This document shows, one piece after another, positions 18,958 to 37,573 of a stretch of 37,573 nt of DNA (positions are counted from its first letter, which is position 1; the number at the start of each line of letters is the position of its first letter). The position numbers and the translations under genes are program-made. The DNA comes from Zoogloea sp. (GTDB lineage Bacteria > Pseudomonadota > Gammaproteobacteria > Burkholderiales > Rhodocyclaceae). Below the pieces are notes generated by a model. The model searched no databases. It saw only the letters and a program-made list of their open reading frames with translations, and had not been told where the DNA came from. The stretch covers positions 1-37,573 of the forward strand of contig NZ_JAFLDT010000042.1 of assembly GCF_017302315.1 (NCBI RefSeq), written 5' to 3'.

Positions 18958-18984
18958 GTTTTGCGATGGCCCCTGGCAGTCCGG

Positions 18985-19004: not shown

Positions 19005-19077
19005 GGATGAAAATGGCATCCCGATCTTGGGGTGGTAAGGGGCTTGCCGGTTCGGGTGTGTTCTGGAAGGTGAGTGA

Positions 19078-20102: not shown

Positions 20103-20166
20103 GTTCAGGCCTCCAGGGGGGTAGCGGGCGTGAGGGGCATCATGGCGCGGTGCCTGTCCGGCGCGC

Positions 20167-21963
20167 TCAGCGCACCTTGACCGACGACAGTTCCCGGCCG
20201 TCGGGACTCATCACGTGGGTCGAGCAGGCCAGGCAGGGGTCGAAGGAATGCAGGGTGCGCAGGATCTCCAGCGGCTCGTCGGCCTTGGCCACGGGCGTGT
20301 CCATCAACGAGGCCTCGAAGGCGCCGATCTGACCCTTATGGTCGCGGGGGCCGCCATTCCAGGTGGTGGGCACGACGCACTGGTAGTTGTCGATCCGGGT
20401 GTCCTTGATCTTGATCCAGTGGCCCAGGGCTCCGCGCGGCGCTTCGGTGAACCCGGCGCCCTTGGCCTCCTTCGGCCAGGTGGAGGGCTCCCATTTCTCG
20501 ATGTTGGCGGTGTTCAGATCCCCCGCCTTGAGATTGGCGATCAGTTTGTCGAACTGCTGGCTCTGCAGCTTGACGCAGTAGGCTGTTTCCAGGCCCCGCG
20601 CCGCGGTGCGCCCCAGGGTCGAGAACAGGGCGCTCACCGGCACGTCGAGCTTCTTGAGGGCGCCATCCACCAGCGCGTGGATCTCCGGGTACTGCTTGGG
20701 CTGAAGATAGCCCAGCACCATGCGCGACAGGCAGCCCACCTCCATGGCATGGCCGCGCCAGCGCGGGGCCTTGATCCAGGAGTATTTGGCGCCTTCGTCG
20801 AGTTCCTTGATGTTGGTCTTGGTGCCCTTGGTGTTGGGGCCGAGCACGAAGTTCGGCTCGGTGACGCCGTCGAAGGGGTGCAGGCCCTTGGTTTCGTCCG
20901 GGTACTTGTACCAGGAGTGGGCGACGAACTCCTGCACCTGCTCCGGATCCTTCAGGTCCACCGGATGGATCTCATCGAGCTTGCCGTTGATGATGGCGCC
21001 CCGCGGCAGCAGCAGGTTGGCCGACGAGTAGTCGTTGGCCTTCTGGGGGATGTCGCCATAGGAGAGCAGGTTCTTCGACGACAGGCCGCCGCCGTACAGC
21101 CAGCCCTTGTAGAAGGAGCCGATGGCAAGCAGATCGGGGATATAGACCTGTTCCACGAACTCGGTGGCCCGGTCGATGATGCTCTTGACCAGGTTCAGGC
21201 GCTCCATGTTGACCGCACCCACGGCCCCCGTGCCCTCCAGGTTGATGGCACAGGGAACGCCGCCCACCAGCCAGTTGGGGTGGGGATTCTTGCCCCCGAA
21301 GATGGTATGGACCTTGACCAGCTCCTTCTGGAAGTCGAGGGCTTCCAGGTAATGGGCCACCGCCATCAGATTGGCCTCGGGTGGCAGCTTGTAGGCCGGG
21401 TTGCCCCAGTAGCCATTCATGAAGGGGCCCAGCTGGCCCGATTCGACGAACTTCTTGAGGCGGTTCTGCACGTCACGGAAGTAGCCGGGCGAGGACAGGG
21501 GCCAGGAGGAAATGCTCTGGGCCAGCTCCGACGTCTTCTTCGGGTCTGCCTTCAGGGTCGACACCACATCCACCCAGTCCAGCGCGTGCAGATGGTAGAA
21601 ATGCACCAGGTGATCGTGAATGTAGAGGTTGAGCTGCATCAGGTTCCGGATGGTGTTGGCATTTTCCGGGATCTGGATGTTCAGGGCGTCCTCGACGGCG
21701 CGCACCGAGGTCAGGGCATGGGTGCCGGTGCACACGCCGCAGATGCGCTCGGTGAAGGCCCAGGCGTCGCGGGGGTCGCGCCCCTTGAGGATGACCTCGA
21801 GGCCGCGCCACATGGTGCCGGTGGAGACGGCATTGCGAATGATGTTCTTGTCATCGAGGTTCACTTCCACGCGCAGGTGGCCTTCGATGCGGCAGACCGG
21901 GTCAACGACGACCCGCTTGCCGGAGTTGTCGAGCTTGAAGCCCTGGGTTTCATAGGCGGCCAT
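20167..21963 (-). CDS. hoxG: Membrane-bound [NiFe]-hydrogenase large subunit HupL/HoxG
   Basis: A 598-residue catalytic subunit for H2 oxidation. Ni ligands are Cys75 and Cys78 in [11 protein letters not shown] (with His82) and Cys577 and Cys580 in DPCLACSTH. Fifteen residues follow the final His583, starting VMSPDGRE, and are expected to be removed by HupD after nickel insertion; the regulatory subunit HupV in this window lacks that tail. The [10 protein letters not shown] segment near 25 is conserved. The gene starts directly behind the hoxK stop, with no spacer. It is exported with HoxK by the Tat pathway as a folded dimer. Confidence 0.97.
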
Positions 21964-23052
21964 TCACTTTTCTCCTGCGTGTTCGGTTTCGCCGGCCTTG
22001 CGGCGTGCGCGTGCGAGGGCGGTCACGGCCGCATGGGCCGCCACGGCCGCCCCGACGGTGCCGGCCGCTGCCTTGCCGATGGTGTCGGCATTGGATTCGA
22101 CGCCGAACTGATGGATGTTGGTCACCCGGTCATAGAAGCTGCCCTTGTCCCAGAAGCCTTCTTCCGAACAACCGATGCAGCCGTGGCCGGACTGGACCGG
22201 CCAGCTCACGCCACCATTCCAGCGCATGGACGAGCAGGCGTTGTAGGTGGTGGGGCCCTTGCAGCCCATCTTGTAAAGGCAATAGCCCTTGCGGGCCGCT
22301 TCGTCGTCCCATTGTTCGACGAACTGGCCCGCGTCAAAGTGGCCGCGCCGATAGCATTTGTCGTGGATGCGCTGACCGTAGAACATCTTCGGCCGCCCTT
22401 GCCGGTCAAGCTCGGGAATGCGGTCGAAGGTGAGCATGTAGGTGACGACCCCTGTCATGACCTCGGCGATGGGCGGACAGCCCGGCACGTTGATGATGGG
22501 TTTGCCGGAGATCACCTTGTGCACCGGCGTGGCCCGGGTCGGGTTGGGCTTGGCAGCCTGCACGCAGCCATACGAGGCGCAGGCACCCCAGGAAATCACC
22601 GCCTTGGCATCGGCACAGGTTTCCTTGAGCACTTCGACAAAGGGGCGGCCACCGTGGATGCAGAACATGCCGTCCTCGTTGAGGGGCGGGTTGCCCTCGA
22701 CGGCAACAATGTAGTTGCCCTTGTACTTCTTCTTGACCTCTTCAATGATGGCTTCCGCCTGGTGACCGGCGGCGGCCATCAGGGTGTCGTCGTAGTCGAG
22801 GGACAGCATCGACAGCACCACATCCTTGGTCAGGGGATGGGCCGAGCGGATGAAGGACTCGGAGCAGCAGGTGCACTCCAGGCCATGCAGCCAGATCACC
22901 GGCGTGCGCGCCTTGGTCTCCAGCGCATGGGCGATGCGCGGTGCCGCGGCGCTGCCCAGTCCGAGGGACGTGGCCGTGAGACTGCAGAATTTCAGGAAGC
23001 TGCGCCGGGTGATGCCCTGGCGCCGCAGCACTTCATAAAAGGTTTCGGTCAC
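21964..23052 (-). CDS. hoxK: Oxygen-tolerant [NiFe]-hydrogenase small subunit HupS/HoxK
   Basis: A 362-residue Fe-S subunit starting at GTG with a GAGGGG ribosome-binding site. The Tat signal TRRSFLKF (15-22) is followed by a likely cleavage after AHA (43). Counting from Leu44 as residue 1, all six ligands of the oxygen-tolerant [4Fe-3S] proximal cluster are present: Cys17, 19 and 20 in ECTCCSE, Cys115 and Cys120 in GACASYGC, Cys149 in PGCPP. The two extra cysteines (19 and 120) separate group 1d enzymes from ordinary ones. Medial and distal cluster ligands follow ([36 protein letters not shown]). A C-terminal hydrophobic helix (about 320-348) anchors the protein to the membrane near HoxZ. 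Confidence 0.97.
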
Positions 23053-23275
23053 GGGTGGTTCCCCCTCGTTGTTCTGGCGTCAAGTCGAGGGTGGAATGAG
23101 CAACGGCCGTGCCATGGGCCACGCCAGGTCGCAGCCCTTTGAAAATCATGGGCTTGCACTGGGTGGCGGGTGGGCATGGAGGCGGGCGGTGGAAGCCTGC
23201 TTGCCGATCTCCATGGCAGGAGTGGCAAGGTGCCTTGCACCTTCGGGGCGGCGCACCCCGCCCGAAAGGGTGGGC
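23053..23275 (-). other. hupT-hoxK intergenic regulatory region
   Basis: This 223-bp gap contains two hairpin-forming stretches just after hupT (AAGGTG/CACCTT at 23227-23243 and a larger imperfect GC stem at about 23241-23270) without a T-tract, then the sigma-54 promoter at 23099-23114. The 120 bp or so between them is where HoxA and a bending protein such as IHF would bind, but I cannot name their sites with confidence. Confidence 0.5.
23099..23114 (-). promoter_or_regulatory. Consensus sigma-54 promoter of the hydrogenase structural operon
   Basis: On the minus strand TGGCACGGCCGTTGCT matches the sigma-54 -24/-12 consensus TGGCACG-N4-TTGCW at every defined position. The expected transcription start is about 23088, some 36 bp before the hoxK GTG. 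The cluster encodes the matching activator HoxA with an intact GAFTGA loop. Hydrogenase promoters of Ralstonia and Bradyrhizobium use the same arrangement. Confidence 0.93.
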
Positions 23276-24622
23276 TCAGTGGCTCCTGACGGGAAGCGTC
23301 AGGGTGAACACCGCGCCCCCGTCCGGATGGTTGTGGGCGGTGAGCTGGCCCCCGTGGCGCTCGACGATGCCGTAGCTGATGGAAAGCCCGAGCCCGGTGC
23401 CCTGGCCGACCGGCTTGGTGGTGAAGAAGGGCTCGAAGAGGTGCGCCATGTGTTCGCTGGCGATGCCGGGGCCGTTGTCGCGGAAGATGATGGTCAGCCA
23501 GCGGTCGCTCACCATGCCGGCAATGTGCAGGCTGGGCTGCGGGGTGGTGGCGGTGGCATCGCAGGCGTTCTGGATCAGGTTCATCACCACCTGCTGCAGT
23601 TGCCCCGATGAGCCCTGGCAGAACAATCCTGGTGGCAGATCATGGGACACCTGGAAGCGGGTCGGCGCACTCTGCACCACCCAGCGCACCGAGCGCCGGA
23701 TCACGTCGGCCAGATCGACCGAGTCCCGCGCCGCCTTGTCGACGGCCGAGAAACGCTTCAGGGCATCGACGATGTCCCGGGTGCGCTCAGCGCCTTCGAT
23801 CATGCCGTCGATCAGGGGCTGGAGATCGCGCTTGATGGCGTCGATACCCAGCTCGGCCCGCAATGCCGCCAGGCCCGGATCGGCCGCCGCCGCCGTGCCG
23901 TGCACCGCATCGAGGTATTTGTCGAGGCGTGTCGTGTAGCGCCGCAGGGACAGCACATTGCCGAGCACGAAGCTGATGGGGTTGTTCAGCTCGTGCGCCA
24001 CACCCGCAACCAGGCGGCCCAGGGAGACCATCTTCTCGGCGTGCAGAAGCTGGCTCTGGGTGCGTTTCAGATCATCGTGGGCCTGGCGCAGGGCCTCATA
24101 GGCACGGCGCAACTCACCAACCGGGCGCCCGGTGACCACCATGCCGACGAGCTTTCCGGTTCGGGACAGGCGGGGCGTCCAGTTGAACGAAACCGGCACC
24201 AGGGCACCGTTCCCGGCCCGTAGCTGGAGCTCGCAATCATGGGCGCCGGCCTGGCCGTGGCTGATCAGCAGCTCGCGGGCCTTCGCCGTCTCGTCGCTGT
24301 CACTAAACAGATCGAACACCGGGGTGCGGAGGAGCTGCGCCGAGGCCTTGCCGGTAAAGCGTTCCAGCGACGAGTTGACCTCCTGGATGGTGCCGTTGCG
24401 GTCGCACACGATGAGGAGGTCGGAGATCGAGGCGAGAACACTCTCGATGAACTGGTGGGACTCCTCAAGCGCCCGGTTCTTTTCCTCGAGCGCCACTTCA
24501 TGCTCGAGCAGGTCACTGTAAACCTGATCCATCTTCTGGATCACCTCTATCCACGCCAGCTCCCCAAGGTCGCCGGACGCGGGGGCTGGGTCGGCGGAAG
24601 GGCCGGAAACGGGCGTGCTCAT
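23276..24622 (-). CDS. hupT: Sensor histidine kinase HupT/HoxJ
   Basis: A 448-residue soluble kinase of the H2-sensing system. No membrane segment is visible. An acidic coiled-coil (LEHEVALEEKNRALEESH) leads into a PAS domain (about 60-165, with LLIVCDRNGTIQEVN). The phospho-acceptor is His210 in GVAHELNNPISF. The ATPase domain shows NLIQNACDA (N box), FRDNGPGI (G1), FEPFFTTK (F) and GTGLGLSISYGI (G2). In Rhodobacter and Ralstonia HupUV/HoxBC inhibits this kinase when H2 is present. The start ATG giving MSTPVSGP is preferred over a frame running 36 residues further upstream into the promoter region. Here hupT opens the cluster, far from hoxA and hupUV. Confidence 0.93.
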   Translation of the reverse strand: MSTPVSGPSADPAPASGDLGELAWIEVIQKMDQVYSDLLEHEVALEEKNRALEESHQFIESVLASISDLLIVCDRNGTIQEVNSSLERFTGKASAQLLRTPVFDLFSDSDETAKARELLISHGQAGAHDCELQLRAGNGALVPVSFNWTPRLSRTGKLVGMVVTGRPVGELRRAYEALRQAHDDLKRTQSQLLHAEKMVSLGRLVAGVAHELNNPISFVLGNVLSLRRYTTRLDKYLDAVHGTAAAADPGLAALRAELGIDAIKRDLQPLIDGMIEGAERTRDIVDALKRFSAVDKAARDSVDLADVIRRSVRWVVQSAPTRFQVSHDLPPGLFCQGSSGQLQQVVMNLIQNACDATATTPQPSLHIAGMVSDRWLTIIFRDNGPGIASEHMAHLFEPFFTTKPVGQGTGLGLSISYGIVERHGGQLTAHNHPDGGAVFTLTLPVRSH

Positions 24623-24680
24623 GGCGGCAGTCGGCTGGGCAGGGGCAAAGGGCCATCGGGGGGCTATGGGGAGGGATTGT

Positions 24681-24694
24681 AGAGCAGGTGCTCT
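24681..24694. promoter_or_regulatory. Palindromic candidate operator between hupT and tmoA
   Basis: AGAGCAGGTGCTCT is a perfect dyad (AGAGCA-GG-TGCTCT) in the 269-bp divergent region. On the minus strand a TACAAT hexamer, a good -10 for hupT, overlaps its edge (24675-24680), so a protein bound here would sit on the hupT promoter. A GGGG-TGCG-CCCC hairpin follows at 24697-24708. The binding protein is unknown. Confidence 0.35.
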
Positions 24695-24743
24695 AAGGGG
24701 TGCGCCCCAATGGCATTTGCTGCAAAGCACCTAAACCATCGTC

Positions 24744-24749
24744 TAATAT
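24744..24749 (+). promoter_or_regulatory. Possible -10 element for the tmo operon
   Basis: TAATAT lies 142 bp before the tmoA start. The -35 candidate at 17-bp spacing (TGCAAA) is poor, as expected for an activator-dependent promoter. No correctly spaced sigma-54 element is found in the region. This is a weak call. Confidence 0.25.
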
Positions 24750-24891
24750 CGCCCCCCTTCGTTTCCTTATAACTTTCCCCTGCACGGTTGAAATGCCCAC
24801 TGCCTTCAACCGGCCGATCCGGCTGCCAATGAGTGGTCGGGCGCGAGGGGGAGCTGCAGGGCTCCTGCATCCCGTTATGAAGGAGACATCA

Positions 24892-26397
24892 ATGGCTGTA
24901 CTCAATCGGATGGACTGGTATGACCTGGCCCGATCCACCAACTGGACACCCAAGTACGTTACCGAGGACGAACTGTTTCCGCCCAAGCTGTCGGGCGAAT
25001 TCGGATTGCCCCTGAGTGCCTGGGAAAGCTACGACGAGCCCTACAAGCAGACCTATCCCGAATACGTGAAAGTCCAACGCGAGAAGGACGCCGGGGCCTA
25101 TTCGGTGAAGGCGGCCCTGGAGCGCAGCCGGATTTTCGAGAACGCCGATCCGGGCTGGAAGTCGGTGATGAAGGCCCACTACGGCGCCATTGCCCGGGGC
25201 GAATATGCGGCGGCCAGCGCCGAGGCGCGGATGATGCGTTTCTCGAAGGCGCCGGGCATGCGCAACATGTCGACGCTGGGCTGCATGGACGAGATCCGTC
25301 ACGGCCAGATGCAGCTCTATTTCCCCCACGAGCACGTGTCCAAGGACCGGCAGATGGACTGGGCCTTCAAGGCCTACGACACCAATGAGTGGGCGATGAT
25401 CGCGGCCCGCCATTTTTTCGACGACATCATGATGACCCGGGACGCCATCAGCGTCTCCATCATGCTGACCTTCAGCTTCGAAACCGGCTTCACCAACATG
25501 CAGTTCCTGGGCCTGGCGGCGGATGCGGCGGAGGCGGGGGACCACACCTTCGCCAACCTGATCTCCAGCATCCAGACCGATGAGTCGCGCCACGCCCAGA
25601 TCGGCGGCCCTGCCCTCAAGGTGCTGATCGAGAACGGCCACAAGGCCGAAGCCCAGAAGCGCGTGGACATTGCCGTGTGGGGCGCCTGGAAGCTGTTCTC
25701 GGTGCTCACCGGTCCGATCATGGACTATTACACCCCCCTGGCGCACCGCAAGCAGTCCTTCAAGGAGTTCATGGAGGAGTGGATCGTCGCCCAGTTCGAG
25801 CGCGCCCTCACCGACATGGGCCTGGACCTGCCCTGGTACTGGGACATCTTCCTGAAGGACATCGCCCAGACCCACCACGGCATGCACCTGGGCTCCTACT
25901 ATTGGCGCCCGACCCTGTGGTGGAACCCGGCCGCCGGCGTCACCCCTGACGAGCGCGCCTGGCTGGAAGAGAAGTACCCCGGCTGGAACGACACCTGGGG
26001 CCAGTGCTGGGACGTGTTCATCGACAACGTGGTGGACGGCAACATGGCCAAGGCCTACCCGGAGACGCTGCCCTACGTTTGCAACATGTGCCAGCTGCCC
26101 ATCCTGGGCGTGCCGGGCAAGGGCTGGGACGTGAAGGACTACCCGCTGGAGTACAAGGGTCGCCTCTACCACTTCGGCTCCGAGGTGGACCGCTGGGTCT
26201 TCGAGCAGGAGCCCGAGCGCTACGCCGGCCACCTCTCCATCGTCGACCGCTTCCTGGCCGGGATGATCCAGCCCATGAACCTGGAGGGCGCCCTGCAGTA
26301 CATGAACCTGGCCCCCGGCGAGATCGGCGACGACGCCCACGACTACGCCTGGGCCGAGATCTACCGCGCACTCCGCGAGACCCGCAAGGCCAGCTGA
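24892..26397 (+). CDS. tmoA: Toluene monooxygenase hydroxylase alpha subunit TmoA
   Basis: A 501-residue diiron hydroxylase subunit of a four-component toluene/benzene monooxygenase. Iron ligands occupy the same positions as in T4moH: Glu104 (ARGEY), Glu134 and His137 (MDEIRHG), Glu197 (SFETGFTN), Glu231 and His234 (DESRHAQ). Active-site residues Ile100, Gly103, Ala107, Gln141, Thr201 and Phe205 also match the T4mo pattern, while position 180 is Met (Ile in T4moH, from memory). The ATG with AAGGAGAC upstream gives the family N-terminus MAVLNRMDWYDLARSTNW. The expected reaction is aromatic ring hydroxylation of toluene to cresols, and perhaps benzene to phenol. It opens the operon, divergent from hupT. 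Confidence 0.96.
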   Translation: MAVLNRMDWYDLARSTNWTPKYVTEDELFPPKLSGEFGLPLSAWESYDEPYKQTYPEYVKVQREKDAGAYSVKAALERSRIFENADPGWKSVMKAHYGAIARGEYAAASAEARMMRFSKAPGMRNMSTLGCMDEIRHGQMQLYFPHEHVSKDRQMDWAFKAYDTNEWAMIAARHFFDDIMMTRDAISVSIMLTFSFETGFTNMQFLGLAADAAEAGDHTFANLISSIQTDESRHAQIGGPALKVLIENGHKAEAQKRVDIAVWGAWKLFSVLTGPIMDYYTPLAHRKQSFKEFMEEWIVAQFERALTDMGLDLPWYWDIFLKDIAQTHHGMHLGSYYWRPTLWWNPAAGVTPDERAWLEEKYPGWNDTWGQCWDVFIDNVVDGNMAKAYPETLPYVCNMCQLPILGVPGKGWDVKDYPLEYKGRLYHFGSEVDRWVFEQEPERYAGHLSIVDRFLAGMIQPMNLEGALQYMNLAPGEIGDDAHDYAWAEIYRALRETRKAS

Positions 26398-26515
26398 GCG
26401 CACGCGAATAAACCTGCTGCGCGGCCCGATTTCGCCCCTGCGCTTCTCGGAGCGAACCCGGACCGCTCGCCACGGTTTCTTCACACGCTTGGTTGCATCC
26501 ACTTCCTGTCGTACC

Positions 26516-26535
26516 GCCCGGCCTTGGTGCCGGGC
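26516..26535 (+). promoter_or_regulatory. Hairpin in the tmoA-tmoB spacer
   Basis: GCCCGGC-CTTGGT-GCCGGGC is a perfect 7-bp stem with a 6-nt loop, ending 30 bp before tmoB. No T-tract follows, so it is not a terminator. It sits in an unusually long 168-bp spacer between two genes whose products bind each other, and could be an mRNA processing or stability element. Confidence 0.45.
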
Positions 26536-26565
26536 CGCGCACCACCCTACAAGGAGACTGCCGTC

Positions 26566-26835
26566 ATGGCCCTGTTCCCCCTGACCTCCAATTTCGAAGG
26601 CGACTTCGTTCTGCAACTGCTGCCCGTGGATACGGAGAACACCATGGATGAGGTGGCGGCCGCCGCCGCCGTCCATTCCGTCGGCCGCCGCGTGCGCGAC
26701 CGCCCGGGCCACATCCTGCGCGTCCGGCTGCACGGTACCACCGAGCTGCTGCCCCGCACGCTCAAGGTGGCGGATGCCGGCTTCCGGCCCACCGAGACCC
26801 TGGACATTGTCTGGCAGGCGCCGGGTACCGCCTGA
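26566..26835 (+). CDS. tmoB: Toluene monooxygenase hydroxylase gamma subunit TmoB
   Basis: An 89-residue small subunit of the (alpha-beta-gamma)2 hydroxylase with the ubiquitin-like fold of TmoB. It begins MALFPLTSNFEGDFVLQLLPVDTENTM in family fashion (here quoted in part: FPLTSNFEGDFVLQLLPVD) and ends in the FRPTETLDIVW strand. An AAGGAG ribosome-binding site precedes the ATG. It does not contact the diiron site and has a structural role. Confidence 0.94.
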   Translation: MALFPLTSNFEGDFVLQLLPVDTENTMDEVAAAAAVHSVGRRVRDRPGHILRVRLHGTTELLPRTLKVADAGFRPTETLDIVWQAPGTA

Positions 26836-26849
26836 GAAGGGAGAGCAAC

Positions 26850-27185
26850 ATGAGCTTCACCAAGGTATGCACCCTCGACGACGTGTGGGAAGGCGAGATG
26901 GCCCCCTTCACCGTCAATGGTCACGAAGTTCTGCTGGTCTGTGCCGAGGGGGGCGAGATCAAAGCCTTCCAGGGCATCTGCCCGCACCAGGACATCGCCC
27001 TGGCCGAAGGCAAGTTCGACGGCAAGAAGGTGATCTGCCGCGCCCATTTGTGGCAGTTCGATGCCGGAACCGGCAAGGGCATCAACCCCGATGACTGTGC
27101 CCTGGCCTGCTACCCGATCCGCGTGGAAGGCGAGGACGTGCTCATCAGTACCGAGGGTGTCGAGCCTCTCTTCGCCCATAGCTGA
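26850..27185 (+). CDS. tmoC: Toluene monooxygenase Rieske ferredoxin TmoC
   Basis: A 111-residue Rieske-type [2Fe-2S] ferredoxin that passes electrons from the reductase TmoF to the hydroxylase. Cluster ligands are Cys44 and His46 in GICPHQD, and Cys63 and His66 in ICRAHLWQFD, the normal CxH...CxxH pattern. It has a GGGAGAG ribosome-binding site and begins 14 bp after tmoB. Confidence 0.96.
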   Translation: MSFTKVCTLDDVWEGEMAPFTVNGHEVLLVCAEGGEIKAFQGICPHQDIALAEGKFDGKKVICRAHLWQFDAGTGKGINPDDCALACYPIRVEGEDVLISTEGVEPLFAHS

Positions 27186-27238
27186 TCCCCATTTCAAACC
27201 GGGCGCCAGCGCGCCCGGGCACCGACAAGGAAACACCC

Positions 27239-27553
27239 ATGAGCACTACAGCATCCGGGCAGGCCTATCACAACAATCTGGTGGGGCCGGTGATGCGTGC
27301 CGGCGATCTCGCCCAGGCCGTCATCGAAGCCGCCCGCACCGACAACCCGGGCAAGGAGATCTTCGTGGACGACAAGCGGGCCTACATCCGCATCCACGCC
27401 GAGCAGGAAATGATCCTGAACCGGGCCACCATCGAAGAGGAGCTGGGGCGGCCCTTCCGCATGAATGATCTGGAGGTGGACCTGAGCTCCTTCGCCGGCC
27501 AGATCGAGAGCCGTGACGACTCGGTGCGCTTCTTCTTCAACAAGACGCTCTGA
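27239..27553 (+). CDS. tmoD: Toluene monooxygenase effector protein TmoD
   Basis: A 104-residue cofactorless coupling protein of the MmoB/DmpM/TmoD family. It binds the hydroxylase over the diiron site and tunes turnover and regiospecificity. The family core is visible as NLVGPVMRAGDLAQAVIEAA (15-34) and IHAEQEMILNRATIEEELGRPF in two parts, ending SRDDSVRFFFNKTL. It lies 53 bp after tmoC. Confidence 0.95.
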   Translation: MSTTASGQAYHNNLVGPVMRAGDLAQAVIEAARTDNPGKEIFVDDKRAYIRIHAEQEMILNRATIEEELGRPFRMNDLEVDLSSFAGQIESRDDSVRFFFNKTL

Positions 27554-27595
27554 TCCGCCCCCCGGAAACCACAAGAACGACACGAGGAGACACCC

Positions 27596-28582
27596 ATGTC
27601 CGAAATTCAAGTCCTGAAGCCCCAGAAGACCTGGAGCCACCTGGCCGTCCGCCGCCGTAAGCCGAGCGAGTACGAGATCGTCAGTACCAACCTGCACTAC
27701 AACGACCGGGACCCGAACTCGCCCTACGAGCTGGACCCGGGCATGTTCATGAACGAGTGGTACAAGAAGCACACCTTCGGCACCGCCCTCAAGCATCCCG
27801 ACTGGAACGCCTTCCGCGATCCGGACGAGGTGGTCTATCGCACCTACAACCTGATGCAGGATGGCCAGGAGACCTACGTCTTCGGGCTCTTCGACCAGTT
27901 CAGCGAGCGCGAGCACGACAAGGCCCTCGACCCCCGCTGGGCCGGCACCCTGGCGCGCCTGTATACCCCGGCGCGCTACCTCTTCCACACCCTGCAGATG
28001 ACCTCGGCCTATGTGGGCCAGGTGTCGCCGGCCAGCACCCTGACCAACTGCAACTACTTCCAGATGGCCGACAGCCTGCGCTGGGTCAGCCACACCGCCT
28101 ACCGCACCCGGGAACTCTCCCGCACCTTCGCCGACAAGGGCTTCGGCGAGGACGAGCGGCGCTACTGGGAAGAGGACGCCGCCTGGCAGGGCTTCCGCGA
28201 GCTGATGGAGCGGACGCTCACCGTGTGGGACTGGGGCGAGGCCATCGTCGTGCTCAGCCTGGTGGTCAAGCCGGCCGTCGAGGAGGCCGTATTGCGTCGC
28301 CTGGGTGAGGCCGGCCGCCACAACGGCGACACCCTGCTGGGCCTGATCACCGACGCCCAGCTGATCGACGCCGCCCGCCACCGCCGGTGGACTGCGGCCT
28401 TCGTCGCCATGGCCTTGCAAACCCCGGGGAACCTGGAGCTCATCAAGGGCTGGATCGCCAAGTGGGAGCCCCTGGCCGACCAGGCCATCGACGCCTACTG
28501 CGGTGCCTTGCCGGATGTGCCCAACGCCGCGGCGGCCGCCAAGGCAGCCACCCGCGACCTGCGTCGCGGAGCGGGGCTCTGA
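27596..28582 (+). CDS. tmoE: Toluene monooxygenase hydroxylase beta subunit TmoE
   Basis: A 328-residue beta subunit of the hydroxylase, a ferritin-fold relative of TmoA without iron ligands. Recognisable parts are KTWSHLAVRRRKPSEYEIVS near 11-30, ALKHPDWNAFRDPDEVVYRTY near 64-84, and SPASTLTNCNYFQMADSLRW near 142-161. It is of normal length and has a GAGGAGAC ribosome-binding site. It forms the dimer core together with TmoA. Confidence 0.96.
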   Translation: MSEIQVLKPQKTWSHLAVRRRKPSEYEIVSTNLHYNDRDPNSPYELDPGMFMNEWYKKHTFGTALKHPDWNAFRDPDEVVYRTYNLMQDGQETYVFGLFDQFSEREHDKALDPRWAGTLARLYTPARYLFHTLQMTSAYVGQVSPASTLTNCNYFQMADSLRWVSHTAYRTRELSRTFADKGFGEDERRYWEEDAAWQGFRELMERTLTVWDWGEAIVVLSLVVKPAVEEAVLRRLGEAGRHNGDTLLGLITDAQLIDAARHRRWTAAFVAMALQTPGNLELIKGWIAKWEPLADQAIDAYCGALPDVPNAAAAAKAATRDLRRGAGL

Positions 28583-28644
28583 GACCTTTGCCGAAGGCCC
28601 TTGCCGCGGTCATCAAGGCCGCGGAGTGGCGCCGGAGAGACACC

Positions 28645-29658
28645 ATGAGTGACCCAGTAATCCACAACGAGCGGGACGGCAGCCGCTTTACCCAGCCAGC
28701 CGGCGACACCCTGCTGCGGGCCGGGCTGCGGGCCGGCATCGGCCTGTCCTACGAATGCAACTCGGGGGGCTGTGGCGGCTGCAAGTTCGAGCTGCTCGCA
28801 GGCGAGGTCGAGACCCTGTGGCCCGACGCGCCCGGCCTGGGCGAGCGGGACCGGCGCCGGGGCCGGCACCTGGCCTGCCAGTGTCGTGCCCTCGGCGATG
28901 TCTCCATCAAGCTGGCGACCGGCCCGGAGTATGTGCCCCGGATCCTGCCCCGGCGGCGTCGGGCTGTGCTTGTCGGCGTGAGCGACATCACCCACGACCT
29001 GCGGGAATTCCGCTTCACGGCCGAAGGGCCGGCGGATTTTCTGCCCGGGCAGTTCGCCATGCTCGATCTGCCCGGGGTGGCGGCGTCCCGCGCCTATTCC
29101 CTGTCGAACACCCCCAACGCGGCCGGAGAGTGGCATTTCCAGATCCGTCGGGTTGAGGGCGGGCAGGGCAGCGGCGTGCTCTTCGACGGTCTGCAGCCGG
29201 GGGCAGAGGTGGGGCTGGATGGCCCCTATGGCGTGGCCTGGCTGCGCACCGATTCGCCCCGCGAGCTGGTGTGCGTGGCGGGGGGCTCCGGCCTGGCGCC
29301 GATGATCTCCATCGCCCGGGGGGCGGCGGAGGCCGGCATGCTGGCCAACCGGCGGCTGCATTTCTTCTACGGCGCGCGGGAACCCCGCGACGTGTGCGGC
29401 GAGCCGATGCTGGCAGCGCTTGAGGGATTCGGTGAGCGCATCACCTACTGCCCGGTGGTCTCCTCCCCGGGCGCGGGGGGCTGGGCGGGGGCCACGGGCT
29501 TCGTGCATACCCGCCTGCCCGAGGCGCTGCCCGCACCGCTGGCGGACTACGAGTTCTACTTTGCCGGCCCGCCGCCCATGACCCAGGCCCTCCAGGAAAT
29601 GCTGATGGTGAACCACCGGGTGCCTTTCGAGCAGATCCATTTCGATCGATTCTTTTGA
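28645..29658 (+). CDS. tmoF: Toluene monooxygenase NADH-ferredoxin reductase TmoF
   Basis: A 337-residue FAD and [2Fe-2S] reductase that oxidises NADH and reduces TmoC. The N-terminal plant-type ferredoxin domain has Cys38, Cys43, Cys46 and Cys78 (SYECNSGGCGGCKF, HLACQC). The flavin domain carries SRAYSLSNTP, which matches the RxYS motif. The NAD domain shows VAGGSGLAPMISIAR and ends in YFAGPPPMTQALQEMLM. The ATG giving MSDPVIHNERDG was chosen because a longer frame only reads back through tmoE. Last enzyme gene of the operon. Confidence 0.95.
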   Translation: MSDPVIHNERDGSRFTQPAGDTLLRAGLRAGIGLSYECNSGGCGGCKFELLAGEVETLWPDAPGLGERDRRRGRHLACQCRALGDVSIKLATGPEYVPRILPRRRRAVLVGVSDITHDLREFRFTAEGPADFLPGQFAMLDLPGVAASRAYSLSNTPNAAGEWHFQIRRVEGGQGSGVLFDGLQPGAEVGLDGPYGVAWLRTDSPRELVCVAGGSGLAPMISIARGAAEAGMLANRRLHFFYGAREPRDVCGEPMLAALEGFGERITYCPVVSSPGAGGWAGATGFVHTRLPEALPAPLADYEFYFAGPPPMTQALQEMLMVNHRVPFEQIHFDRFF

Positions 29659-29689
29659 GGTTCCGCGAGGAACGGATGTGGAGACAAGA

Positions 29690-30861
29690 ATGAAAACAAG
29701 ACAAGGGAAGGGACAACATTCACCGCGCGGGCTGCGGATCGCGACGCTGGCTGTGGCCATCGCCGCGGCCGGTGGTACGGCCCACGCCACCGATGTCTTC
29801 CGGCTGGAAGGCTTTGGCGCCATCTCCCGGGGGATGGGGGGCGTAGCCACGGCCCTGGACGTGGGGGCGGCCGGCATGATGACCAACCCGGCCACCCTGT
29901 CGCTGATGCCCGCCGACAACACCGCCCAGATCGGGCTCGATCTGGTCACCACCGATATCGACGTTACCAACCGGAGCACCGGTGAGCACGTCCATTCGGG
30001 CAATCACAGCCAGAACCGTGGCCCCTATTACGCGCCCCAGGCGGCCCTTACCCGGCGCGTGGGGGAATGGACCTTCGGCCTTGGTGCCTTTGCTCAGGGC
30101 GGCCTCGGCACCGAGTACGGGCGCAGCAGCTTCCTGTCCCGGGCCACCGGCGGCATTGACACCGGCCTCGAGAACTCCAGCCGCCTGCTGGTGCTGAACA
30201 TCCCCCTGGCGGCAAGCTTCCGGGCGTCGGAGGCCCTGACCATCGGCGGCAGCGTCGATGCCATGTGGCAGGGCCTCAACCTGAACCTGCTGCTGGGCGC
30301 AGACCAGGTGGGCAGCCTGATCGGGGCGTCGCGGGTGTCCGGCTCCCTGCTGCCGGTGCTGGGCGGGCTGCCGGATCTGCGCGGCGCCCACTTCAGCCTC
30401 ACCCGCAACTCCCCCCTGGCCAGCGGCGTCAACGCCTGGGGCTATACGGGGCGGATCGGCATGACCTACGCCCTGACGCCGGCAACACGCCTGGGGGCCG
30501 CCTATACGAGCCGCAGCCGCATGGGTGACATGGAAGGCCGGGCCACCCTGACGGCCATCGACGGCGTGGCGGGGCAGATTCCCCTGGGCGGCAAGATTCG
30601 CATCCGCGACTTCCAGATGCCGGCCGTGGTCAACCTGGGGGTCAGCCATCGGGTCAACGATCAGCTCACCCTGGCGGCGGATGTGTCGCGGGTCTTCTGG
30701 TCCAGCGTGATGAAGGACATCAAGGTGGGCTTCGTGGCTGATGCCGGCGGCGACCTGAACATCCTGCTGCCCCAGAACTACAAGGACCAGACCATCCTCG
30801 CCATGGGCGCGGCCTGGCAGATGGATTCCCGCTGGACCCTGCGCGGCGGTCTGCGCCTGGC
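29690..30861 (+). CDS. tmoX: FadL/TodX-type outer-membrane transporter, C-terminus missing
   Basis: About 390 residues of a FadL-family beta-barrel channel, of the TbuX/TodX/TmoX kind that lets toluene cross the outer membrane. A signal peptide with cleavage after AHA (33) is followed by TDVFRLEGFGAISRGMGGVATA, the N-terminal hatch region with NPATLSLM. Later strands include LGAAYTSRSRMGD and AVVNLGVSHRVNDQLTLAADVSRVFW. Homologues run about 430-460 residues and end in aromatic. The match stops after WTLRGGLRLA, and downstream codons translate the opposite strand of an unrelated lipase gene, so the last part of the barrel is missing. It follows tmoF by 31 bp. Confidence 0.85.
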
Positions 30862-32356
30862 GCGCTTCCTGTTCGTTGTGCTGCATCGCCTGCTTGCCGT
30901 AGCTCTCGATGCCCTGCGCCTGCTGGCCGACCCATTTTTCCGCACCCTCGGGCAGCGGCTTCGCCAGCCAGCGCATCGCGCTGGCGGTCCACGACGTCGT
31001 CGACTCCTGCACCTTGCCCTGTACGTGGTCGATGCCGGCCGACACGTTGCCGGCCTGCAGCCGCACCTGCGCGGTCAGTTCGCCGCCGGCGCTCACGGTG
31101 CCGCTGACGACCTTGCCGGTGGTGCCGGTGACGAAGGCGTTCGCCTGCCCGTGCAGCTGCGCGGTGTAGTTCAGGCCCTGGCCGACGACGTGCAGCCCCT
31201 GCTCGGTCGCCTGCCCCTGCACCTTCACCACTTCGCCGACGTTGCGGCCGACGCGCGCGCTCATCGCGGTCGCGCTCAGCACGTCGGTCAGCGGGCCGGC
31301 GTAGGCGCCGAGTTCGCTCAGCGCCATCTGGTCGGGGCGATTGACCAGCCGACCCTGCTCGTCGCGGGTCTTGGGCGAGAGCAGCGGCTGCAGTTCGCCG
31401 GCCGCGGTCGGCAGATTCTTCAGCGCCTGATTGCCGGAATGGGTCGACAGGTAGTCGATCGCGCCCATCGCCGACTTCTGCGCGTCCGGCGGCAGCATCC
31501 CCGACAGTTTGCCGGCGACGAACTCGCGCGCACCGGGCTGGGCCATCAGCGAGGTGACGTCGTTCGCCAGTCGCCCGGCCTCGGCGCGGCGGGCCGCGTC
31601 GAGCTTCTGGATGCCGGTCTGGCCGTCGGTCAGCATCTCGCCACCGACCTGGTAGGCATCGACGTTGCGCTTGGTGTCGTACACCTGCAGGCCGTGCTCG
31701 TCGGCATAGCGCTTGGCGGTGTTCGGATGCAGGCCCGCGGCGTTGAACGTGGTCGTCTCCACGCCGGTGACCGCGCCGGCCGCCGAGGCCATGCCGCCGC
31801 CCAGCGAATGGCCGGCGATCTCGAACTGGAAGCCCTGCACGCCCTTCAGCCTGCTCGCGGCGTCCATCGCGCGGTCGTAGTAGTCGGTCTTCAGGCCCAG
31901 CCCCTGCGGGACGTTGTTGGCCAGGAAGTCCTCGGCCGCGCTCTCGCGCTTGCCGCCCGGCGCGGCCGGATCGACGATCGCGCCGGTCGAGCCCTTGAAG
32001 ACCAGCACCGGCTTCGCGTCGGCGCCGAGCACCGATTTGTCCGGGAGGTAGATCTCGGCGCGGTAGCCGGAGCCGTCGGGATGCAGCATGTTGTCGATCT
32101 GCCGGCGGTCGAGCCCGGGCGCCAGCGCCTGCAGCATCTCCGGATGCTCGCTGGCGCGCGTCCAGCCCACCGGCGGCTTGCCTTCGCCGCGGGCCGAGAC
32201 ATAGACGTCAGCGGCGAGGTCGGCCATGCGCTGGGCGTGATAGCCGCCGGCCAGACGGTCGGCGCGGCCGGTCTCGCCGGCGGTGCGCAGGTCGGAGACC
32301 AGCTTGTCCTGTGCCTCGCGCTCGGCGCGGACGCTCTCCCGGGTGGGCTCGGTCAT
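30862..32356 (-). CDS. Class 3 lipase-family protein, putative secreted effector, C-terminus missing
   Basis: At least 498 residues are visible. The N-terminal half has a lipase class 3/DUF2974-like alpha/beta-hydrolase region: LVFKGSTG near 118-125, and the nucleophile elbow AGHSLGGGMASA with Ser184. No signal peptide is present. The second half is Ala/Gln-rich and helical, ending HNEQEARQAQ before similarity breaks at about 30862, where the frame runs into the reverse strand of the FadL gene. Xanthomonadaceae T4SS (XVIPCD) or T6SS lipase effectors have this kind of layout. A divergent lipoprotein gene 124 bp away is a plausible immunity partner. Secretion route cannot be confirmed because the C-terminus is missing. 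Confidence 0.7.
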
Positions 32357-32480
32357 GGCTTCTGTTCCCTGAACGCGTGGTTCACCATCCTCGCAAAGCC
32401 CATGCCGCGCCACAAGCCGGCCGATACCGTCCCCCCGGATTTTCTGCTATCAAGGCCGCATCCCCCGAACCGATGCCGCC

Positions 32481-33491
32481 ATGTTCCCGTCTGTCGTCCG
32501 CCGGGCGCCGCCACGCTGGGCCGCCGCGATCGCCCTGAGCCTGGGCCTCTGCGCCTGCTTCGGCCCGCTGCCCGCGGCCAACGACGCCAGCCGTTCACAG
32601 CACGCCGCCGAGCGCTATTTCGACGGCAAGGCGCTGGATCTGGCGATCGCCGCCGAGCATGGCGATGCCGGCACCGTCCGTCGACTGATGCGCGACGAGA
32701 AGGTCGATCCGGACACGATCTTCGCCAAGGGCGAGAACGGACAGGGCATGCCGTTGGTCGCCTGGCCGGTCTACACGGAGAATCCCGAAGGCCTGAAGGC
32801 GATGCTGGAGAACGGCGCCGACCCCAACGCCCGCCGTCCCGAGCGCATCGACAAGCGCTACGACGATGGCACCGAAAGCCACAAGTTCCGCTACAACAAC
32901 GCGCTGGTCTACGCGGCGCAGGCGGACGACCCGATCTACCTGAAACTGCTGCTCGACCACGGCGGCGACCCGAACACCGTCAACACCAACGACGAGCCGC
33001 TCACCTTCGTCGCCTTCCTGCACCAGAACCAGTGGCAGAACGTGAAGCTGCTGGTCGAACGCGGCGCGAAGGTGAACGATCCGTCCTTCTACCCGGGCTC
33101 GCCGCTGGAGTGGTACGCCGGCCGGGGCGGCTTCGAGCAGACCTACTGGCTGCTGCAGCACGGCGCGGACCCGACCAAGAAGGTCAAGGGCACCGCGCCC
33201 GCGCCGACCGATGCGAAGGGCACGCCGCTGCCGCAGCCGGACGCGCCCGCCGACGGCTTCGCCTGGGTGAAGTACGGCAAGGACGGCAAGCCGGTCTACG
33301 TCGACGGCATGCCCATCGTCGAGAACATCTACTGGCATCCCGGCAGCCCGAAGACGGTCGAATGGCAGCGCAAGTGCCAGCACTGGCTGCGCGACCGCGG
33401 CATCGCCCGCCCGCCGATGCCGGCGAGCCTCCGCACGATGCGCAAGTCGTTCGGCTTCCCGACGGACGAGAAGGACATCCCGCCGCTCTGA
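32481..33491 (+). CDS. Ankyrin-repeat lipoprotein, candidate immunity protein
   Basis: A 336-residue protein with a basic, hydrophobic N-terminus and a lipobox-like LCAC (Cys26), so probably a periplasm-facing lipoprotein. Ankyrin-type repeats follow from about residue 50: ALDLAIAAEHGDAGTVRRLM, PEGLKAMLENGADPNARR, DPIYLKLLLDHGGDPNTVN, QWQNVKLLVERGAKVND and FEQTYWLLQHGADPTKK. A Lys/Pro-rich linker and a TrpHis-rich tail end the protein. It is divergent from the lipase-family gene. Ankyrin lipoproteins are known immunity partners of secreted lipases, so an effector-immunity pair is likely, by inference. Confidence 0.8.
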   Translation: MFPSVVRRAPPRWAAAIALSLGLCACFGPLPAANDASRSQHAAERYFDGKALDLAIAAEHGDAGTVRRLMRDEKVDPDTIFAKGENGQGMPLVAWPVYTENPEGLKAMLENGADPNARRPERIDKRYDDGTESHKFRYNNALVYAAQADDPIYLKLLLDHGGDPNTVNTNDEPLTFVAFLHQNQWQNVKLLVERGAKVNDPSFYPGSPLEWYAGRGGFEQTYWLLQHGADPTKKVKGTAPAPTDAKGTPLPQPDAPADGFAWVKYGKDGKPVYVDGMPIVENIYWHPGSPKTVEWQRKCQHWLRDRGIARPPMPASLRTMRKSFGFPTDEKDIPPL

Positions 33492-33509
33492 CGGCCGGTT
33501 TCCAAAGGG

Positions 33510-33965
33510 ATGTCCGAAAGGCTTTCCGATGGGCTTTCGACGATGACGCAACCGCCGCCGCTGCCTGCGACGCCTCCGACACCCGAAACGGATGCCGCGC
33601 GCCGGCCACGTCGCCTCTGCGCACGGGTGTTCCTGCTCGCCGCGGTGCTCGAATTCGCGGGCGCGGTACTCGTCGGCACCTGGCTGGCGCGCGACTGGTC
33701 CATGCAGTGGCACGAAAAGACCTTCGTCGACAGCGTGTACCTGTCCTAGGGCGGCCTCCTGATCCATGCCTTCGGCAAATGGGGGCTCATGGCCGTACTC
33801 GTGCTTTATTTTGCCGCCGGCGCGCTGCTGCTTTCGATCACGGCCGCCGTGTTTCGCGCGTCGGCACGTCCGCGGCTGCTGTCGTCGCTCGCGCTGCTGT
33901 GTCTCGTTTTCGTCCCCGCGGGAACGCTCGCCGGCCTGCACGCGCGGCGCCGGCTCCGACGCTAG
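33510..33965 (+). pseudogene. Small membrane protein interrupted by an in-frame TAG
   Basis: The first part (33510-33749, 79 residues, or from Met12 at 33543) has a Pro-rich head and one membrane segment (FLLAAVLEFAGAVLVGTWLA), then ends at TAG (33747-33749). The same frame continues without another stop for 71 codons to a TAG at 33963-33965. It encodes two more clear membrane segments (WGLMAVLVLYFAAGALLLS and SSLALLCLVFVPAGTLAGL) with a basic tail. This looks like one three-helix membrane protein split by a nonsense mutation or a base-calling error. The family is not recognised. It lies 18 bp after the ankyrin gene. Confidence 0.6.
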
Positions 33966-34047
33966 TGCACGCGACATCGGGTCGTTCCGGTGTCGACCGG
34001 AAAGGCGCGGGGTACGATGCCGCCACCGCCATGTCCCCGGAGACGCC

Positions 34048-35022
34048 ATGCGCCGCTTCAGCCTGACCGGCTTCATCTTCGTCGCACTCGGCCTCCTTGG
34101 CACCGCCGGCGCCGCCGAACCCGACCGCCGCATCGCCGTCACCATCGACGATCTGCCGTGGCAGCGGATCGCGGTCACGCCGCCCGAGGCCCTGCAGCCG
34201 CGGCACGAAGCGCTGATCGCGCAGCTGAAGCAGGCCGGCGTGCCGGTGATCGGCTTCGTCAACGAGGACAAACTCGAGGTCGACGGCGTCGTGCAGCCGG
34301 CGCGGGTCGCGATGCTGCGCGACTGGCGCGACGCCGGCTTCGCGCTGGGCAACCACACTTACGGGCACGTCGATCTGCACGAGGTCGGCATTCCCGCCTT
34401 CGAGGACGCGATCGTGAAGGGCGAGCGCGTGCTGCGCCCGCTGCTGGTCGAACGCGGCGACGCCCCGCGCTGGTTCCGCCATCCCTACCTGCGCGCCGGG
34501 CAGACCGATGCCGACAAGCGGGCGGTGATCGATTTCCTGGCCGAGCACGGCTATCGCGTCGCACCGGTGACGGTGGACAACGGCGAGTGGGTCTGGGCGT
34601 TCGCCTACGAGCGCGTGCTCGACGGCCAGCCCGACACGCCCGAGCGCACGGCGACGCTCGAACGCCTGCGCCTGGGCTACGTGCCCTACATGCTCAACAA
34701 GCTCGACTACTACGAGCGGCAGTCGGAGGCGCTGCTCGGGTACGCGCTGCCGCAGGTGCTGCTGATCCACGCCAATACGCTGAATTCGGTTGCCTACACC
34801 GAGTTGGTCGCCGGCATCCGCCGCCGCGGCTACCGCTTCGTCACGCTCGACGAGGCGATGCGCGATCCCGCCTATGCGCGGCCCGACGGCTACCACGGCC
34901 GTTACGGCCCGAGCTGGCTGCACCGCTGGGCGATGGCCGAACAGAAGCCGAAGACGTTCTACGCCGGCGAGCCTGAGGTACCGAAATGGGTGCTTGACCT
35001 GGCCGGCGTGGACGGCGAGTGA
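34048..35022 (+). CDS. Polysaccharide deacetylase family protein
   Basis: A 324-residue secreted NodB-homology (carbohydrate esterase 4-like) protein. A signal peptide (about 1-22, ending GTAGAA) precedes the catalytic domain. Metal and catalytic residues are visible: Asp34-Asp35 in VTIDDLPW, His103 and His107 in GNHTYGHVDL, and the RHPYLRAGQT motif near 150. HANTLNS near 260 would supply the late catalytic His. The ATG at 34048 was chosen because sequence upstream in the same frame is out-of-frame translation of the preceding membrane gene. Substrate (peptidoglycan, chitin-like or other polysaccharide) is unknown. Confidence 0.88.
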   Translation: MRRFSLTGFIFVALGLLGTAGAAEPDRRIAVTIDDLPWQRIAVTPPEALQPRHEALIAQLKQAGVPVIGFVNEDKLEVDGVVQPARVAMLRDWRDAGFALGNHTYGHVDLHEVGIPAFEDAIVKGERVLRPLLVERGDAPRWFRHPYLRAGQTDADKRAVIDFLAEHGYRVAPVTVDNGEWVWAFAYERVLDGQPDTPERTATLERLRLGYVPYMLNKLDYYERQSEALLGYALPQVLLIHANTLNSVAYTELVAGIRRRGYRFVTLDEAMRDPAYARPDGYHGRYGPSWLHRWAMAEQKPKTFYAGEPEVPKWVLDLAGVDGE

Positions 35023-35041
35023 CCGCGAAGCCCGGCGTCAT

Positions 35042-35797
35042 TCAGGGCTTGCGGTACAGGTGCACGAAGCGGTCGGTCTTGCCGCGTATCGTCGGGTCGA
35101 ACACGTTCTTCGTTCGGTCGTCGTCGGGATTGCGCAGCACCGCGATGCTGCCGACGAAGTCCAGGCCATGCGCCTTGAAATCGCGGACGGCGAACGTTTC
35201 GTCGATGCGATGCAACATCTGCGCATCGGCGCTGCCGCTGCCCTCGCGCGCCACGTGGTCGACGATCAGCAGCTTTCCCCCCGGCTTGAGCGCGGCGACG
35301 ATCTGGTCGATGAACTGGCCGGCATCCACCGCCGGCCAGCCCTGCGCGGGATCGACGTAGTACAGGTCGTGGTAGGACATCACGATCAGCGCGCCGTCGA
35401 GCGCATTCCTGCCGAGGCCGAGCGCCTCGTTCGGCACCACCGAGCGGCGCACGTTGGGCAGCCGGCCGTCGGCGAAGCGGGTGGCGAGCGCGTCCTTGGC
35501 GAACGCCGCGTACGGCGGGTTGTTGACCAGCAGCACCCTGCCCTCGGGACCGACCACCTCTGACAGGATCTCGCTGTAGTAGCCGCCTCCACCGAACACG
35601 TCGGCCACGGTATCGCCGCGACGGAAGCCCGCGAGACCGAGCACCGCATCGGGATGGTCGCGCAGGTCGCGGGTGCGGTCGTCGGCGCTGCGCGCGGGCG
35701 AGGCCAGCGCAGCGCGCACCACCTGTGCATCGCGAACGGGCGCATGCGAGCAGCCGGCGGCGGCGAGCGCGAGGATGAGCAGGGCAGGCAGGCGCAT
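35042..35797 (-). CDS. Predicted SAM-dependent methyltransferase with lipoprotein signal (COG4798-like)
   Basis: A 251-residue protein. The start MRLPALLILALAAAGC gives a clean lipobox with Cys16, so the protein is probably a lipoprotein. The class I methyltransferase domain follows, with SAM motif I as TVADVFGGGGYYSEIL (62-77) and a GGKLLIVDHVAREG strand later. This group of secreted predicted methyltransferases is widespread in Proteobacteria, without known substrate. A longer frame (to 35872) has no lipobox at its start and is less likely. It converges on the deacetylase gene with 19 bp between stops. Confidence 0.85.
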   Translation of the reverse strand: MRLPALLILALAAAGCSHAPVRDAQVVRAALASPARSADDRTRDLRDHPDAVLGLAGFRRGDTVADVFGGGGYYSEILSEVVGPEGRVLLVNNPPYAAFAKDALATRFADGRLPNVRRSVVPNEALGLGRNALDGALIVMSYHDLYYVDPAQGWPAVDAGQFIDQIVAALKPGGKLLIVDHVAREGSGSADAQMLHRIDETFAVRDFKAHGLDFVGSIAVLRNPDDDRTKNVFDPTIRGKTDRFVHLYRKP

Positions 35798-35912
35798 GGG
35801 GGTCTCCGTGGACGAGGCCTCACCCTGCCATTGCCGCCCCCGTCCGCGCACCGGCCCGAAGTCATGGCGCACGTTCCCGCCCGATCGTGCAAAGCGTGAC
35901 CTTTTCCGCGGC

Positions 35913-35933
35913 CCGTCTCATGCGACGAGACGG
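35913..35933. promoter_or_regulatory. Hairpin/dyad upstream of the radical SAM gene
   Basis: CCGTCTC-ATGCGAC-GAGACGG is a perfect 7-bp inverted repeat ending 21 bp before the radical SAM start. It could be an operator or a leader hairpin. It does not resemble a typical LexA box, and its role is unknown. Confidence 0.35.
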
Positions 35934-35954
35934 CGGGCACGGCACAATCCGCCC

Positions 35955-37223
35955 ATGCAGCTGTCCCGCAAACTGGCCGTCCTGGCCGACGCCGCCAAGT
36001 ACGACGCCTCCTGCGCCTCCAGCGGCGCCGGCGGCCGCAATTCGCTGAAGTCCGGCGGCATCGGCAGCACCGAAGGCATGGGCATCTGCCATTCGTACAC
36101 GCCCGACGGGCGCTGCGTGTCGCTGCTGAAGATCCTGCTGACGAACTTCTGCATCTACGACTGCGCGTACTGCATCAATCGCGCCAGCAGCAACGTGCCG
36201 CGGGCGCGATTCACGCCGGACGAAGTGGTGCAGCTCACGCTCGATTTCTACAAGCGCAACTACATCGAGGGGCTGTTCCTCTCCAGCGGCATCATCCGCA
36301 ACGGCGACTACACGATGGAGCAGCTGGTCGAGGTCGCGCGCAGCCTGCGCGAGGACCATCGCTTCGCCGGCTACATCCACCTGAAGACGATCCCCGAGGC
36401 CTCGCCCGAGCTGCTGGCGCTGGCCGGTCGCTATGCCGACCGCCTGAGCATCAACATCGAGCTGCCGACCGAAGCCGGGCTCAAGAAACTGGCGCCGGAA
36501 AAGCAGCTGCCCGGCATCCGCGCGGCGATGGGCACGGTCTCGGCGAAGATCGAGGAAACGCTGCAGGCGCGCAAGCCGGCGACGACCAGCAACGCTTCGC
36601 CGAAGCGGCGCCGTCCGCCGCGCTACGCACCGGCCGGACAGAGCACGCAGATGATCGTCGGCGCCGACGATGCCGACGACCGCAGCATCCTGCTCACCTC
36701 CAGCGGTCTGTACGGCGATTTCCGCATGCGTCGCGTGTACTACTCCGGCTTCAGTCCGATTCCGGACGCGTCGTCGTCCCTGCCGGTGAAGCCGCCGCCG
36801 CTGCTGCGCGAGCACCGGCTCTACCAGGCCGACTGGCTGCTGCGCTTCTATGAATTCGGCGTCGAGGAGATCGCCCCCGACGCCAAGGCCGGCGGCAGCG
36901 GCATGCTCGACCTCGACATCGATCCCAAGCTGGCCTGGGCGCTGCGTCACCCGGAGAAATTCCCGGTGAACCTCAACACCGCGCCGCGCGAGATGCTGCT
37001 GCGCGTGCCGGGTCTGGGCACGCGCAACGTCGACCGCATCCTCATCGCGCGCCGCCACGGCCGCCTGCGCCTGGAGGACATGGCGCGGCTGCGCGCGCCG
37101 CTGCAGAAGATGTTGCCCTTCATCCAGCTGCCCGACCACCATCCGCGCAAGCGTCTCGACGACCCCGCCTCGCTGCGCGCGCAGCTCGCACCGAAGCCGC
37201 GCCAGCAGGATCTGTTCGCGTGA
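35955..37223 (+). CDS. Radical SAM protein, putative DNA modification/repair (TIGR03916 type)
   Basis: A 422-residue radical SAM protein. The [4Fe-4S]-SAM motif is CIYDCAYC (Cys66, Cys70, Cys73) after CVSLLKILLTNF. The SAM domain continues with LFLSSGIIRNGDYTMEQLV. The C-terminus carries a helix-hairpin-helix DNA-binding motif, LLRVPGLGTRNVDRILIARR (about 355-374). This domain order defines the putative DNA modification/repair family that is nearly always next to a UdgX/DUF4130 gene, as is the case here with 13 bp between. A basic linker (ARKPATTSNASPKRRRPPR) splits the SAM region. The reaction is unknown. The start has no strong ribosome-binding site. Confidence 0.92.
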   Translation: MQLSRKLAVLADAAKYDASCASSGAGGRNSLKSGGIGSTEGMGICHSYTPDGRCVSLLKILLTNFCIYDCAYCINRASSNVPRARFTPDEVVQLTLDFYKRNYIEGLFLSSGIIRNGDYTMEQLVEVARSLREDHRFAGYIHLKTIPEASPELLALAGRYADRLSINIELPTEAGLKKLAPEKQLPGIRAAMGTVSAKIEETLQARKPATTSNASPKRRRPPRYAPAGQSTQMIVGADDADDRSILLTSSGLYGDFRMRRVYYSGFSPIPDASSSLPVKPPPLLREHRLYQADWLLRFYEFGVEEIAPDAKAGGSGMLDLDIDPKLAWALRHPEKFPVNLNTAPREMLLRVPGLGTRNVDRILIARRHGRLRLEDMARLRAPLQKMLPFIQLPDHHPRKRLDDPASLRAQLAPKPRQQDLFA

Positions 37224-37236
37224 TGGACGGCAGCCG

Positions 37237-37573
37237 ATGAATCGCTTCCGCGCCGAAGTCGAACCCGGCTGGGATCTCGGTGCCTGGCGCAGACTCGCCC
37301 GCGCCGGGCTGTGCGCAGGCATCGCGCCGGAAGACATCGACTGGGACGGCGATGCGCAGGCGACGCTGCTGGCCGCGCCGGATCTCGCCACTGCCGCCGC
37401 GCTCCGTCCCGCGCCGCAGGTGCCCACCGCGCTGTTCGAACTCGCCGCTGCAGTGCTCTGCCATCGCGACCCGCAGCGCCATGCCCTGCTCTACCGCATC
37501 GCCTGGCGCATCGCACAGGGCGAGAAGCACCTGCTCTCGCGCGTGACCGATGTCGACGTGCGCCGCGCCTCGG
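37237..37573 (+). CDS. UdgX/DUF4130-type DNA repair protein (N-terminal part)
   Basis: The first 112 residues, running off the window. The sequence WDLGAWRRLARAGLCAGIAPEDIDW and the later LLYRIAWRIAQGEKHLL stretch match the N-terminal DUF4130 (TIGR03915-type) domain (quoted here as parts: AWRRLARAGLCAGI, LLYRIAWRI). This domain is often fused to a uracil-DNA glycosylase of the UdgX kind in proteobacteria. UdgX binds and covalently traps uracil in DNA. The glycosylase half would lie outside the window, so only the family is inferred. Probably one operon with the radical SAM gene. Confidence 0.8.
   Translation, partial: MNRFRAEVEPGWDLGAWRRLARAGLCAGIAPEDIDWDGDAQATLLAAPDLATAAALRPAPQVPTALFELAAAVLCHRDPQRHALLYRIAWRIAQGEKHLLSRVTDVDVRRAS

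Follow-up and report, generated by a model that had tools for sequence, protein, structure and literature searches.

Does the fadL/todX-type transporter gene that breaks off near position 30,860 of this stretch lie at a real chromosomal junction, or were two genomes joined there when the contig was assembled? The stretch analysed, hereafter the window, spans all 37,573 bases of contig C103, one of the 165 contigs of the Zoogloea sp. draft genome (G000), whose total is 4,516,272 bases, with completeness 95.05 and contamination 2.96. We conclude, with little room for doubt, that the contig is an inter-genome assembly chimera joined at ~30,850, and that the feature is very probably an ordinary assembly error and not new biology. 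A reading of the letters alone (the sequence-only reading) had placed an abrupt junction at about 30,860, and the break is real: alignments switch source at 30841–30861, a joint of 21 bases alignable to both sources, which separates a left part native to G000 (1–30840) from a foreign, Lysobacterales right part (30862–37573). Several of the DNA and protein match searches below scored part of the first-look candidates, and absences hold at that depth; the protein family scans covered some of the contig's proteins, chiefly those right of the joint.

The left part has its closest relative in the draft's own genus. The last 3.3 kb of native sequence (27605–30861) aligns to the same-genus genome G006 at 96.3% DNA identity, and the alignment stops at 30861; upstream of 27605, G006 matches in blocks of 88–96%, with gaps, and much of 6500–24800 is also matched by other same-genus genomes. 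The stop falls inside the gene for the fadL/todX-type outer-membrane transporter (29690–30861, plus strand; Pfam PF03349, E-value 1.1e-37), whose protein is 98% identical to its relative in G006, 93% in G001 and 91% in G011; each of the three parts from the window at 30862. Ten fadL loci with the gene end read were drawn from the 22 other same-genus genomes, and in all ten the frame extends 77–79 residues past the window's break. The gene has thus lost its 3′ end, as had been proposed, but the loss amounts to the last 77 residues and not to the 40–70 first suggested.

The right part finds a different closest source, and the earlier impression of Xanthomonadaceae-like genes is borne out: those relatives that carry names belong to Lysobacterales and its kin. 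It aligns to contig C27 of the Lysobacterales metagenome-assembled genome (MAG) SH_71_25 (G060) in three blocks running from 30841 to 37569 at 85–91% identity, and, in five blocks spanning 30836–37568, to contig C20 of UWPOB_LYSO1 (G061) at 70–80%. UWPOB_LYSO1 is listed under Xanthomonadaceae, Lysobacter_A, in a paper that gives SPAdes with the metagenomic option as its assembler (PMC8103865). Both sets of blocks are collinear with the window and run in the same direction, reaching to no more than 5 bases short of its end. The SH_71_25 alignment is absent over 33496–34102 and 35019–35945, and inter-block lengths differ: one interval, from 35018 to 35946, holds 927 bases in the window and ~3.7 kb in SH_71_25. 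Conversely, positions 20000–30835 show no match to either Lysobacterales genome beyond one 41-base stretch.

The gene cut on this side is a minus-strand, effector-type gene (30860–32356), of which the first 499 codons are kept, as alignment to intact relatives shows. These relatives, of 806 residues in SH_71_25 and 803 in UWPOB_LYSO1, align to 495–498 of the 499 codons, and the gene is whole across the joint in both Lysobacterales loci read (L032, 8001–10421, and L033, 8001–10412). The proposed loss of its C-terminus is borne out, with ~305 of ~805 residues gone. The lipase label given to it does not fare as well, being drawn from sub-cutoff matches only (PF01764 at 14.4 and 17.9 bits against a cutoff of 22, in the relatives; NF047388 at 20.7 against 230). 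Querying the genome collection with the minus-strand protein yielded 41 pattern-matching stretches, of which 7 were confirmed as loci: two Lysobacterales MAGs with best-segment identities of 94% and 74%, and Stenotrophomonas, Pseudoxanthomonas, two Luteimonas and one Lysobacteraceae bacterium at 38–55%. Across G000's own order, with at most 7 candidates scored, the protein outside G000 gave partial matches at 37–39% in 1 of 199 genomes. With the 5 best candidates scored per genome, the right part as a whole had one longer match among 59 relatives of G000 (a same-order genome, 68% over the radical SAM gene); the remaining listed matches were shorter than 90 bases, with a maximum of 62 bases within the genus (22 other genomes).

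Where the two sources meet, they are nearly the same. The G006-side and SH_71_25-side alignments overlap over the 21 bases 30841–30861, and the two genomes are identical at 19 of these, a figure measured between relatives of the two sources and not between the actual strains; over 30851–30861 the window, G006 and SH_71_25 are all identical. Among 200,000 random pairs of 21-mers, drawn from sampled stretches of G000 and the two Lysobacterales genomes, the best agreement was 16. As the sequence-only reading had suggested, the joint falls within a brief GC-rich run of sequence that the two kinds of genome share. Two long open frames cross it (29678–34066, plus strand, 1,462 aa; 29720–32413, minus strand, 897 aa). 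Each contains one real gene up to the joint, and we read the remainder as chance openness in high-GC DNA, in line with the view that such a frame is an artefact and no fusion protein.

Microhomology would also be expected at an illegitimate joint formed in nature. We weighed a real illegitimate recombination, by which Lysobacterales DNA entered the G000 organism and was joined inside fadL through ~20 bases of microhomology, with no mobile element at the joint. Such an event, recent and between distant lineages, probably of different orders, is in our judgement highly improbable. One 16-nt inverted repeat does straddle the joint (30743–30758 and 31075–31090, 94% complementary, 316 nt apart, with arms ~100 bases to its left and ~210 bases to its right). 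Short two-copy repeat families are often due to chance, as the repeat-search tool itself warns, and we take this one as such. Counting against recombination, the scanned proteins included no transposase, integrase or other mobile-element product, and we saw neither a tRNA in 29001–33000 nor a direct repeat flanking the joint in 30500–31200, in agreement with the sequence-only reading; the same absences mean that the recombinase and the flanking direct repeat or tRNA expected of a mobile-element or integrase insertion were not found. Moreover, Lysobacterales order persists from the joint to the contig end, without a return to native DNA.

Composition adds a further point against recombination, and the tetranucleotide check of both sides comes out as a chimera predicts. 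The GC fraction stays level across the joint (1500-base bins on its two sides: 0.697 and 0.701), and tetranucleotide usage changes there. The right part retains Lysobacterales composition, lying at a distance of 0.205 from the G000 mean and 0.066 from the Lysobacterales mean, and none of 36 G000 chunks was nearer the Lysobacterales mean than its own. A fifth-order Markov model places the change point at 30787 with a score of 1236.9, versus 1232.3 at 30861. These comparisons also bear on the opposite possibility, a correct contig in which the left part is the foreign one, a catabolic island taken up by a Lysobacterales genome. Nothing speaks for it directly. All five left chunks lie closer to the remainder of G000 than to Lysobacterales, one of them by a small margin (0.127 vs 0.137); the left part is also carried by members of the genus to which the draft is assigned, and the rest of the SH_71_25 locus, ~8 kb past the joint, found no counterpart in G000 among the candidates scored. 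We give this reading almost no weight.

If C103 is misjoined, the true continuation of fadL should lie elsewhere in the draft, and a candidate is present. The DNA that follows fadL in G006 was located in G000 on another contig, C112, from base 229 on, at 97% identity, and the C112 gene likewise occurs within a few hundred bases after fadL in G001, G011 and G020. Bases 1–132 of C112 are a multicopy repeat, present near-full (91–99%) at least 8 more times on other G000 contigs; C112 therefore starts where short-read assembly would be expected to break. The head of C112 has no match in the Lysobacterales stretches compared. Recombination is harder to reconcile with this arrangement, in which the gene that follows fadL in relatives sits on C112 behind a repeat. 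C112 is likely the true neighbour of the left part, across a gap of ~230 bases of fadL plus a spacer. With 40 of 330 first-look candidates scored, G000 yielded no copy of these last ~230 bases, so that C103 and C112 cannot be closed from the draft.

Two observations concern repeats of this genome. Of the 22 other same-genus genomes, 4 matched the ~130-base repeat of C112, over no more than 47 bases, among the candidates scored. Additionally, a dispersed repeat of ~125 bases, first seen in a G006 stretch, has some tens of matches in G000 (e.g., C105:33633–33758 and C117:16550–16675) and partial copies at window positions 26395–26489; some copies match both strands, and it looks palindromic.

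The contig thus has a different closest source on each side, each with its own gene intact through the joint; the sources share a short sequence there, composition shifts at the same place, and the left half continues on C112. Searching each half separately, as had been advised, returned G006 for the left and SH_71_25 for the right, and the earlier proposal of an assembly chimera is sustained. We infer that the joining was made by the assembler, not in the cell or in the library, and that the shared stretch was its cause. The assembler would have linked sequence of the G000 organism to that of a co-occurring Lysobacterales bacterium through the ~21-base GC-rich stretch nearly alike in both genomes, a link falling inside fadL of one and inside the effector-type gene of the other. 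An amplification or ligation chimera, in which the false link arose in a library molecule instead of in the assembler's graph, could also join at a short shared stretch; a molecule of low abundance would not usually prevail in the assembly, and we regard this origin as very unlikely. Interspecies chimeric contigs arising through a chimeric node of the de Bruijn graph are described for metagenome assembly (PMC8171044). The chimeras of that account involve evolutionarily similar species, whereas the sources here are distant and have only ~21 bases in common.

On the left, a monooxygenase region is marked by Pfam Phenol_Hydrox at 27596–28582. Farther upstream, the intervals 6572–11194 and 15046–24705 have near-zero DNA match in the compared part of the otherwise collinear G006, and much of them is matched by other same-genus genomes at ~67–86%, which points to variable gene content. 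On the right, the part lost from the effector-type gene carries the XVIPCD domain in the intact relatives (PF20410, X-Tfes_XVIPCD; residues 678–777 in SH_71_25 and 673–772 in UWPOB_LYSO1; E-values 1.1e-21 and 5e-22 for L032 and L033, respectively); no Pfam family matches the truncated copy in the window. X-Tfe effectors with the XVIPCD signal are reported to belong to a bacteria-killing type IV secretion system (PMC6759196, PMC11253643, PMC6536674). The likeness to these effectors lies in the PF20410 domain of the intact relatives; the window copy differs in lacking the signal, lost where the contig switches source, and the lipase assignment is below the Pfam cutoff.

Divergent from the effector-type gene is one for an ankyrin-repeat protein (32481–33491, plus strand; Pfam PF12796, E-value 7.3e-13), with a lipoprotein signal as judged by eye, and an aligned ankyrin-repeat gene also neighbours the effector-type gene in L032 and L033. 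Judging from domains and gene arrangement, the two are possibly an antibacterial effector/immunity pair of Lysobacterales, in which the pairing and the immunity role are putative and the enzyme type uncertain. There follow a polysaccharide deacetylase-type protein (listed frame 33766–35022, plus strand, its true start probably further in; Pfam PF01522, E-value 5.4e-11) and a methyltransferase-like protein (35042–35872, minus strand; no Pfam match, and NCBIfam matches far below cutoffs, best E-value 3.4e-5). The foreign end closes with a putative DNA repair pair (35937–37573): a radical SAM protein of family TIGR03916, putatively for DNA modification or repair (35937–37223, plus strand; NCBIfam E-value 7.7e-166, above cutoff), and the beginning of a TIGR03915-like partner, truncated where the contig stops (37237–37573, plus strand; NCBIfam E-value 4.5e-9, below cutoff as a fragment would be).

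The result is one of curation: a contig in the draft genome of a different bacterium ends in ~6.7 kb of Lysobacterales DNA. A cut at ~30841–30861 should take 30862–37573 off this contig, with C112 regarded as the likely true neighbour of what remains. Because the contig is very probably misjoined, genes left and right of the joint should not be read as neighbours, and those right of 30,861, which risk being misread as neighbours of the monooxygenase region and of what the sequence-only reading calls the hydrogenase region, are unfit for interpreting the left region and have no place in the draft. Left there, the effector-type gene, the ankyrin protein and the radical SAM repair pair would be attributed in error to the G000 organism.
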